Assembly: GCF_009688965.1 (NCBI RefSeq) | Contig: NZ_AP021875.1 | Span: 6,925,001 to 6,989,000, forward strand | Source: Desulfosarcina widdelii | Lineage (GTDB): Bacteria > Desulfobacterota > Desulfobacteria > Desulfobacterales > Desulfosarcinaceae | Direction of reading: 5' to 3' | DNA: 64,000 nt | In this document: piece after piece, positions 60,761-64,000 of the stretch | Layout of the letters: each line of letters opens with the position of its first letter | Numbering within the stretch: position 1 is the stretch's first letter | Translations under genes and position numbers: made by a program | Notes under the pieces: model-generated | What the model was told of the DNA's origin: nothing | Databases searched by the model: none | What the model saw: only the letters and a program-made list of their open reading frames with translations

Positions 60761-61483
60761 CCAAGCCGGTGACGAATATTTTGTTATGTAAGCAGAGGTG
60801 CGATGGCTTACTGGTTGAAGGTGTTCATTTTTATGGTGTTCGTACCCACACCTATGGCAAAAAGTTTTTTATAATAGCACGTTTTCGGGCTGGATCGCCA
60901 TATATCCATTTACGTATCACCAGTGCGTAAAGACGTGAAGTTATCTCGAACAATCTGAAATTTATAAGAATTATAAAAATTGAATCCCAAAAATCATCAA
61001 TTTCAGCCAAGGATGATCAACTCGTAAACAGAACAACTTCCCAATTGGCGATGCCTTAAAACTTCTTAAAAATTATGGTAAAAAATTCCCAAAAATTATT
61101 TATAAAATTACACAATATTCTATATGTAATAATACGTTTAATTGTCTAACATATTGATAGAATTTATAAATCACTATCATCAATAACTCTGCATAACTTT
61201 TGCATGGTCATCTTTATTCCCCACGGATTTTTCATCTACAATGAACTACCCTCGCCGCAATCAGTGAGGTATCAGCTACGTATTGGGTCGTTTATACCGC
61301 CGCAAGGAACGGGGTATTAGACCTGTTGCTTCGCAATATAAGTTTTTTCCAGTATTCCCGGGAACCTTTTTCTTCAGCGGTGAAATGGACGACTGCCGAA
61401 AATTTTATATAACACTGTTTTTTGTGTATATTTAGCATGTTGTCACAGGAAAATTTTTCCATTTGATCTAAAAAGGGGGGAAT
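60761..61483. other. AT-rich intergenic region with two hairpin-like repeats
   Basis: No supported gene. Bases about 60890-61210 are strongly AT-rich, unlike the surrounding GC-rich chromosome. Two related words sharing GCCGCAA and GGTAT[CT]AG lie at about 61246-61275 and 61294-61320; they resemble the palindromic ends of IS200/IS605-type elements but are too decayed to assign. The promoter of the interrupted gene at 61484 should be near the right edge. Confidence 0.5.
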
Positions 61484-61546
61484 ATGCGAATCAGTCAGAT
61501 CTTCTTGGTAATTTTAATATTAGCTAGTGCTCATCCACAGGAATAA
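61484..61546 (+). pseudogene. 5' signal-peptide fragment of the IS-interrupted MopE/SGNH gene
   Basis: ATG 61484 has a GGGGGG Shine-Dalgarno and encodes 'MRISQIFLVILILA' up to 61525; the IS then takes over and the frame stops at 61546. If the IS (61527-63202) and one TAGCTA copy are removed, the frame continues exactly into 'ISTNVSA' and the MopE-repeat protein at 63209, giving a complete signal peptide with a VSA cleavage site. Confidence 0.85.
61521..61526. repeat. Target-site duplication, left copy
   Basis: TAGCTA immediately left of the IS, identical to 63203-63208. Confidence 0.8.
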
Positions 61547-63202
61547 CTACCTGTAATAAATAAGAAACGCGCATTTTGTAGTGGTTTTTCTCTTCTCTTT
61601 GTAGTATATTGAAAGTCGCCAAACAACCAATATCACTACAAAAGAAAGAAAGGAGCCGATCACAAAATGCGCGAAAAATGGCAAAAACAGATGCCCCTGA
61701 TGCCTCAGATCAAAGACCACGCCCAAGCAAAAGAACTTACAGCTATCAGTGGTATCATCGATGCTCACCCTATCATCTGTGATCGCGTTCTTCAAGATTT
61801 GAACAAGGGCAAGCTGGTGGCCTATCGAACTGGGGCTGACGGCATGAGCGCCGACCAGGTACTGCGTTGTGCTATCGTCAAAATCCTTTTCGGTTTTACG
61901 TATGATGAACTGGCATTTCATATTGTCGATTCGCAGGCATTGAGTTGGTTCTGCCGGATCGGTATCGCCGACAAGGGATACAAAAAATCCGCCCTGAACA
62001 AAAATATCAAAGGCATATCGGACGCCACCTGGGAACTGATCAATGCGGATCTTTTGGGATATGCGAAGCAAAAGGGCATTGAAAAGGGCCGACAGGTCCG
62101 GGTCGATTGCACGTGCGTTGAAACTCACATCCATCATCCCACCGACTCCAACCTGCTGTGGGATGGTGTTCGCGTGTTGACGAGGCTGCTGAAGCGCTTC
62201 CGGGATGAATCGGGGATCACAGTTCCTGACTTCCATAACCATACCCGTGTTGCCAAACGACGGATGCTGGCGGTGATGAATGCCAAACGGAAAAACAAGC
62301 GTAAGGTTGCCTATGTGGACCTGCTCAAAACCAGTCGCAAAGTGGTTGGGTACGCTCATAAGGCAGTCGCTGCGATCAATGCCGGTGCGACCTGCGACCC
62401 GCTGGTCATGACGATTGGCTTCCAGATCGAACATTTTGTCGATCTGACCCGCAGGGTGATCCACCAGACCGAACGCCGGGTTCTTCATGGAGAAACGGTC
62501 GATGCCAAAGACAAAGTAGTATCGTTGTTCGAGCCACATACCGATATCATCGTCAAGGATAGGCGCGATACGCTGTTTGGTCACAAAATCTGTCTGACCG
62601 GAGGCGCGTCGAACCTTATTTTGGACTGTGTCATCACCGAAGGCAATCCGGCCGACGCCGACCTGACGATACCGATGCTTGAGCGGCAAAAACAAATTTA
62701 TGGCCGCTATCCCCTCAAGGCCAGCTTCGACGGCGGTTTTGCATCCAAGGAAAACTTGAAGCGAGCCCAATCGCGTAAGATCAAAGACGTCTGCTTTGCC
62801 AAGAAACGAGGTCTATCTGAAACCGACATGTGCCGCAGCCAATATGTGTATCGTCGATTGCGCCGCTTTCGAGCGGGTATTGAATCCGGTATCTCCTGGC
62901 TGAAGCGTTGCCTTGGCCTGACCCGCTGTACCTGGAAAGGATGGGACTCGTTTAAATCCTATGTTTGGTCTTCGATTGTGGCCGCCAACCTGCTGACCAT
63001 CGCCAGGGGAAAAACAGCCACTTGAGACCTTAATCGATTCCGCATCGTGAAAACTGGTTGAACAAGTGCGCTTGCATTAAGCCGATTTCGGTAAATTAGC
63101 CACAAACCGATGTAGCGATGGTGAGAAAAATCCTGCCGAGGATTTTACCACTCTATTTTTTTTGCGACTCGGCTCTGAAAATTACCATTTATGGATCGAC
63201 AC
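61527..63202 (+). mobile_element. Intact insertion sequence (DDE transposase, IS5/ISNCY-like)
   Basis: About 1676 bp. Ends GTGCTCATCCAC (61527-61538) and, inverted, GTGTCGATCCAT (63191-63202) are imperfect terminal inverted repeats, flanked by 6-bp TAGCTA direct repeats. It carries a single full-length transposase gene in the same direction as the gene it interrupts. The perfect duplication and exact frame repair indicate a recent insertion. Confidence 0.85.
61667..63025 (+). CDS. DDE transposase
   Basis: 452 aa. Catalytic residues: Asp in 'VRVDCTCVETHIHHPTDSN', Asp in 'KASFDGGFASKEN', Glu in 'RFRAGIESGISWLKRCLGL'. The 'ETHIHHPTDSNLLWDGVRV' block is characteristic of an IS5/ISNCY-like group. 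AGGAG lies 11 nt before the ATG. It appears intact. Confidence 0.92.
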   Translation: MREKWQKQMPLMPQIKDHAQAKELTAISGIIDAHPIICDRVLQDLNKGKLVAYRTGADGMSADQVLRCAIVKILFGFTYDELAFHIVDSQALSWFCRIGIADKGYKKSALNKNIKGISDATWELINADLLGYAKQKGIEKGRQVRVDCTCVETHIHHPTDSNLLWDGVRVLTRLLKRFRDESGITVPDFHNHTRVAKRRMLAVMNAKRKNKRKVAYVDLLKTSRKVVGYAHKAVAAINAGATCDPLVMTIGFQIEHFVDLTRRVIHQTERRVLHGETVDAKDKVVSLFEPHTDIIVKDRRDTLFGHKICLTGGASNLILDCVITEGNPADADLTIPMLERQKQIYGRYPLKASFDGGFASKENLKRAQSRKIKDVCFAKKRGLSETDMCRSQYVYRRLRRFRAGIESGISWLKRCLGLTRCTWKGWDSFKSYVWSSIVAANLLTIARGKTAT

Positions 63203-64000
63203 TAGCTATTTCAACGAATGTTTCTGCTGTTAAGCCTCCGCTAGTGTGCGACGCAGATGGAGATAGTTACGAGTCAGACAACAAGAAGTGCGGAGGCAAT
63301 GATTGTGATGACAGCAACCCGAATGTTTATCCGAATGCAAATGAACTTTGCGACGGGTTGGACAATGATTGTGATGGAATCGTTGATGAAAACTGTCCAG
63401 AACCACCGGCTGAACCAACCCGATGCGATCAGGATGCAGACGGGTATGATGCAGATTCAAGATCCTGCAAAGGGGATGATTGTGATGATACCAATCCGTA
63501 TGTTTATCCGGGAGCAGAAGAAATTTGCAATGATGAGATAGATAACGACTGTGATGGTGAAATAAACGAAGGCTGTGGTCAGTGCCCCGACGCTGACAAC
63601 GATGGCTATACAGATTGTGATGGAGACTGTGATGATAATAATCCTTTAGTCAACCCTGACGCTACTGAGCTTTGCGACGGCATTGACAACAACTGCGATG
63701 GGACCATTGATGAAGGATGCTCAAGTATGTATCCCAATAGTATGGCCGCAGCTGGCGACAGCATAACTGTGGCATACAATGCCGATGGAACCGAAAGCCT
63801 GTTTTTTGGTTCCACGGGTTATCAGGATGAGGTGAGCTGGGCGCTTGGTGACAGTATACGGATAAACAGCCATGCGCAAAGGCTTGCGGCATTGAACCCT
63901 GGATTTAGCTGGGATGCGGAATTCGACAACCATGCAATCTCAGGTGCAAACATAATTGATCTCAAGGATCAGGTCATACAGATTGTGCAGGATGGTCCTT
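63121..64000 (+). CDS. MopE-repeat / SGNH-hydrolase secreted protein, N-terminus replaced by IS, 3' end beyond window
   Basis: The frame is open from GTG 63121 (inside the IS) to the window edge; native sequence begins at 63203. After the original signal-peptide remainder come about three MopE-type metal-binding repeats ('NDCDDSNPNVYPNANELCDG', 'DDCDDTNPYVYPGAEEICN', 'GDCDDNNPLVNPDATELCDG', each followed by an NDCDG-like loop), then an SGNH/GDSL-type start 'AAAGDSITVAYNADG' at about 63745-63790. The protein was probably exported to the surface, with repeats binding Ca or Cu. From GTG 63121 a new hydrophobic leader is encoded, so some expression may persist. Confidence 0.8.
   Translation, partial: MRKILPRILPLYFFCDSALKITIYGSTLAISTNVSAVKPPLVCDADGDSYESDNKKCGGNDCDDSNPNVYPNANELCDGLDNDCDGIVDENCPEPPAEPTRCDQDADGYDADSRSCKGDDCDDTNPYVYPGAEEICNDEIDNDCDGEINEGCGQCPDADNDGYTDCDGDCDDNNPLVNPDATELCDGIDNNCDGTIDEGCSSMYPNSMAAAGDSITVAYNADGTESLFFGSTGYQDEVSWALGDSIRINSHAQRLAALNPGFSWDAEFDNHAISGANIIDLKDQVIQIVQDGP
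63203..63208. repeat. Target-site duplication, right copy
   Basis: TAGCTA immediately right of the IS, identical to 61521-61526. Confidence 0.8.

Follow-up and report, generated by a model that had tools for sequence, protein, structure and literature searches.

An ISNCY-type insertion sequence within the signal-peptide codons of a predicted exported MopE/SGNH hydrolase gene of Desulfosarcina widdelii

The interrupted gene and its surroundings

The window analysed here is a stretch of 64,000 nucleotides from Desulfosarcina widdelii (contig NZ_AP021875.1, positions 6,925,001 to 6,989,000), a genome in which dsrA scores above its cut-off, as in a sulfate reducer. Near the right end of the window, two copies of TAGCTA bracket a 1676-bp element at coordinates that agree to the base with an earlier sequence-only reading, and the two parts of a single interrupted frame lie on either side (Table 1).

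Table 1. Features of the interrupted gene and of the insertion sequence (IS), by window position
Feature	Positions	Strand	Basis
Candidate sigma-70-like promoter of the interrupted gene, TTTATA-17-TATATT	61404..61432	+	
Ribosome-binding-like purine tract AAAAAGGGGGGAA, 5′ of the ATG	61470..61482	+	sequence
Interrupted gene, 5′ fragment: start, n-region and hydrophobic core of the signal peptide	61484..61526	+	
Target-site duplication, left copy, TAGCTA	61521..61526	+	
Insertion sequence of 1676 bp (11 intact copies in the genome, this one included)	61527..63202	+	
DDE transposase, 452 aa, NCBIfam NF033593 transpos_ISNCY_1	61667..63025	+	
Outward-reading frame in the right end of the IS, continuing in phase into the 3′ part of the gene; probably not functional	63118..63202	+	
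Target-site duplication, right copy, TAGCTA	63203..63208	+	
Interrupted gene, 3′ part: signal-peptide end (...STNVSA), three MopE motifs, start of GDSL/SGNH domain	63209..64000	+	

The 5′ fragment runs for 43 nt from its ATG (14 codons and one base) and encodes a leader that begins with basic residues and continues into a strongly hydrophobic core. When position 61526 is joined to 63209, the sequence reads MRISQIFLVILILAISTNVSA-VKPPLVCDADGDSY... (also written MRISQIFLVILILAISTNVSA-VKPPLVCDADGD...), which reproduced the continuous frame proposed earlier, with a leader ending in VSA and a MopE/SGNH body. This joined frame falls within a stop-to-stop run of 454 codons and has a Shine-Dalgarno-like tract and a Sec-type leader with the VSA end, which precede three MopE motifs and a hydrolase domain of GDSL/SGNH type; the end of the gene (L009:5518) lies 518 bases beyond the end of the window. 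In the present, unjoined sequence the leader fragment is 20 residues long (MRISQIFLVILILASAHPQE) and its stop codon lies within the IS. The candidate promoter is weak, since a scan of 61000-63400 found three sigma-70-like sites against 3.8 expected by chance.

The gene body is stop-free and contains three MopE motifs (PF11617, 4e-31), followed by matches to Lipase_GDSL_2 (PF13472, E 6.5e-11, 43.5 bits against a gathering threshold of 32.9) and to PF00657 (E 3.6e-10, 40.8 bits against 23.6). Its translation includes AAGDSI, IGHND and DCFHPN, which we take to be the Ser, Asn and Asp-x-x-His blocks that characterize GDSL/SGNH hydrolases, and the domain was assigned accordingly. The SGNH part matched no solved structure by sequence at E 0.01, and Rfam gave no match at the thresholds used. 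The earlier description of the product as a surface protein is a guess; what its features do indicate is an exported protein in which a metal-binding motif is combined with a domain resembling esterases.

An ortholog of the interrupted gene was sought at several taxonomic depths. A protein search of 97 genomes (its own and 96 relatives) matched 37 of them, and the matches listed were repeat-level MopE hits and one SGNH hit (in G083), with no ortholog among them. Neither 389 genomes of the order nor 395 of the phylum (own genome included in both, and both sets drawn evenly from larger groups) contained an ortholog; three weak matches outside the own genome were found in the former and three distant matches in the latter. 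A scan of named genomes yielded at least one relative, at 32% identity, in Oligoflexales, and a collection of plasmids gave one match at 28%. At the DNA level, 13 genomes of the genus were searched (own included; for most of them, scoring covered only some of the candidates from the initial pass), and neither the gene nor its leader was among the matches listed for the 12 congeners, which matched neighbouring genes and dispersed repeats. In one of these congeners (G004), the neighbouring aminotransferase gene (90%) and a gene presumably tsaD-like (91%) are 42 kb apart. Since these searches yielded no ortholog, no empty site was seen at the focal locus, and one is implied there only by the join and by the element's other copies. 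The distant SGNH relatives appear, from their first residues as judged by eye, to carry export leaders of their own. A DsbA-like gene, with a Thioredoxin_4 domain, adjoins the SGNH gene in all three distant phylum-level relatives that were checked (L095, L096 and L097), and the two may possibly form a conserved pair.

Several repeats are also present around the locus. The segment 61234-61341, just upstream of the gene, matches dispersed places in its own genome and in congeners at 72-88%, includes near-copies of CGCCGCAA...GGTATYAG at 61253-61275 and 61298-61320, and is presumably of REP type. Another dispersed repeat (approximately 60818-60956) has parts that match seven places in the own genome and two in congeners at 71-80%. 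Beyond the window, a repeat of about 320 bp (L009:6482-6811) that occurs once in the own genome is found at 15 near full-length places in G004 (87-88%) and looks like a small mobile element.

The insertion sequence, its copies and its target sites

The element has the general features of an insertion sequence, with terminal inverted repeats and a target-site duplication (TSD). Its ends, GTGCTCATCCA and GTGTCGATCCA, form an imperfect inverted repeat with 8 of 11 positions matching when compared by eye. The transposase belongs to the ISNCY_1 family: it scored 460.2 bits against the curated cut-off of 325 of NF033593 and aligned across its length (residues 15-447 to profile positions 5-444 of 444). 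Models of two other families, IS5 (IS5_1, 117.2 bits, cut-off 275) and IS1182 (83 bits, cut-off 270), remained below their own cut-offs and were rejected.

The own genome (7.3 Mb, one contig) contains 16 matches to the IS. Eleven are full copies, two belong to a single split copy, one is a truncated copy, and the other two are relatives at 68%. The same IS is thus found intact at ten places besides the focal site, which the sequence-only reading had not noted. The transposase protein is identical in all 11 intact copies; six of them, including the focal one, are identical across all 1676 bp, and the other five lack one T of a T tract close to the right end. These identical copies present the picture of a recent burst of the element. 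The tract itself (63156-63163) has eight T in the six copies and seven in the five, which may be either real variation or a homopolymer assembly error.

Exact direct repeats of 6-7 bp flank 11 of the 12 two-ended copies. Eight are of 6 bp (TAGCTA, TAACTA twice, TAGTTA three times and TAATTA twice) and three of 7 bp (GAGTCTA, TAAACTA and TAGATTA), while the remaining copy has a repeat with one mismatch (TACCTA/TAGCTA). The pattern TANN(N)TA describes 10 of the 11 exact repeats, and a target preference of this element can now be given as TA, two or three bases, and TA. TAGCTA is its own reverse complement, so that at the focal site a direct repeat is indistinguishable from an extension of the inverted repeats; however, the non-palindromic repeats of other copies (TAGTTA, TAACTA, TAAACTA, TAGATTA and GAGTCTA) are direct, from which the focal duplication is also taken to be a direct repeat. 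One copy (L013, G000:C1:2445489-2448424) is interrupted in turn by about 1.25 kb of other DNA and lies within a frame for an ankyrin-repeat-like protein (named by eye).

For two of the 11 other two-ended copies (L004 and L007), an empty site was looked for in congeners. Both flanking pieces of L007 align to one uninterrupted frame of 140 codons in G004; by tblastx, the alignment of the left flank ends at base 2401 and that of the right flank starts at base 2399. The alignments meet at 2399-2401, and therefore both 7-bp copies fall on a single stretch of G004, which agrees with the repeat at five of seven bases. The G004 homolog may be a paralog, given the further partial matches of the L007 left flank in that genome. 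The flanks of L004 had no match outside the IS in three congeners.

A DNA search with the element in 60 genomes (own included) found matches at some level in 20. The congener G008 has three copies at 88% with identical 11-bp terminal repeats (GTGTCCATCCA, by eye) at both ends; a clear exact repeat flanks one of the three (L075, TAATCTA), and the flanks of the other two are unequal. The same genome has a 341-bp, MITE-like derivative of the IS (L077:1501-1841), internally deleted and without the transposase gene, which lies between copies of TAATTA. A 31-bp identical IS right end stands beside TAATTA in G001 (L079), as it does in the G008 derivative.

Interpretation of the insertion

Taken together, these data argue for a recent insertion of an ISNCY-type element at a TANNTA site in the leader codons of an exported protein, with the enzyme very probably not made, a reading to which we assign a probability of about 0.9. 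Probably mobilized by its own DDE transposase, the IS entered a TANNTA target and generated a 6-bp duplication there. This target lies among the codons for the signal peptide of a gene whose exported product would have three MopE motifs and, at its C-terminal end, a GDSL/SGNH hydrolase domain. The sequence directly shows the insertion, the repeats that border it, the family of its transposase, its presence in many copies and the interrupted frame. The native message still starts well, but its translation ends inside the IS after 20 residues, and the frame 3′ of the IS has no leader with a good start site, so that production of the exported enzyme is very improbable. Loss of export and of function of the interrupted gene is thus predicted from the sequence. 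That the insertion is recent is suggested by the identical copies and by a gene body that is still open.

It is also conceivable, but very unlikely, that the IS has supplied the gene with a new leader, in which case the protein would still be made, and perhaps exported, under control of the element. An ATG at 63118 in the right end, a start that the sequence-only reading had not mentioned, would give the hybrid MVRKILPRILPLYFFCDSALKITIYGST-LAISTNVSA..., and this frame is open through 28 IS codons into the gene and likewise open in the three 88% copies of G008. However, no Shine-Dalgarno-like tract was seen by eye 5′ of this ATG, the scan of 61000-63400 placed no promoter-like site at the IS right end, and the hybrid leader is weakly hydrophobic (best 9-residue mean of 1.53 versus 3.74 for the native leader). 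In five of the 11 intact copies, the shorter T tract shifts the outward frame. Compared with one G008 copy, changes at the three codon positions number 3/3/3 in the outward frame and 27/19/119 in the transposase, although nine changes are few and exclude coding constraint on the outward frame with little force. A search of the literature for an outward reading frame of an IS fused to a signal peptide found none, which is no proof of absence.

The sequence-only reading had regarded the inactivation as phase-like and possibly revertible. According to this idea, the IS would leave precisely, with one target copy, appreciably often and restore the exported protein in a subpopulation. We consider this highly improbable. 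Exact restoration consists of the loss of the IS and one target copy, and is rare for DDE insertion sequences. The join is indeed exact, but such exactness is the trace of any TSD-making IS; moreover, the transposase is of ordinary DDE type, the IS is multi-copy, and nothing observed sets the focal site apart from the other two-ended copies, 12 in all. The recent insertion that splits a signal peptide holds, whereas the revertible, phase-like part of the claim has no support, exact restorability being common to every TSD-making insertion. The earlier argument against chance, from the agreement of frame, duplication and leader, is sound with regard to insertion and silent with regard to switching.

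A further idea combines the T tract with the hybrid leader: the number of T (eight or seven) would set the frame of a portable outward start, and at this locus the insertion would exchange the native leader for the hybrid one and place the exported enzyme under slippage control instead of merely turning it off, which we regard as extremely unlikely.

How often a leader would be met by chance was roughly estimated by counting the positions at which, in fixed phase, a leader of 10-20 codons with a Shine-Dalgarno-like site, a charged n-region and a hydrophobic core ends; there were 164 among the 127,200 positions that the two strands of the window provide and 16 among 24,360 positions when the surrounding region was modelled as a first-order Markov chain, counts that serve as a guide only since the criteria were fixed after the leader had been seen. 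That the two fragments were never one gene, the first being a chance leader-like ORF beside the IS and the second an unrelated gene beyond it, is scarcely credible: an uninterrupted homolog with this leader was not found in the 97 genomes (among the matches listed), the 389 or the 395, but the frame matches, the target is duplicated, the left part has a Shine-Dalgarno-like tract, an n-region and an h-region and the right part a cleavage site, such a coincidence would be expected at about 0.1% by chance (under criteria set afterwards), and a different gene is broken in the same way by one of the other IS copies.

Most likely, the insertion has simply knocked out the gene of an accessory exported enzyme. 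The event is an ordinary kind of IS insertion, and the locus cleanly illustrates recent activity of an ISNCY-type element in a sulfate-reducing bacterium; its significance would grow only if the element proved to excise often from this site.

Comparison with known systems

With the MopE protein of Methylococcus capsulatus, the interrupted gene product has in common only the short Pfam motif PF11617, which is named after MopE. The present protein differs in having three such motifs together with a GDSL/SGNH domain, and copper binding by it is putative.

The element shares with the ISNCY_1 family a single 452-aa DDE transposase, an element length of 1.68 kb and a TSD of 6-7 bp. In ISfinder terms, its home is presumably the ISDol1 group of ISNCY, a subfamily named in the literature. 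In contrast to the 6-7 bp found here, the IS1202 group of ISNCY is described in PMC10132070 as having TSDs of 3-5, >15 or 0 bp.

With respect to reversion, IS492 is an IS110-type element and differs from the element studied here, which is a TSD-making DDE insertion sequence. Precise excision, the published precedent in favour of a switch, is described in PMC5493358 for IS492 (eps locus) and IS1301 (siaA), both with phase variation, and for IS5 in the fuc region; PMC2536512 also describes it for IS492. In Pseudoalteromonas atlantica (IS492/eps) and Neisseria meningitidis (IS1301/siaA), an IS likewise inactivates a gene, there one for exopolysaccharide or capsule, and reversion was reported in those systems, whereas at the present locus it is imagined only.
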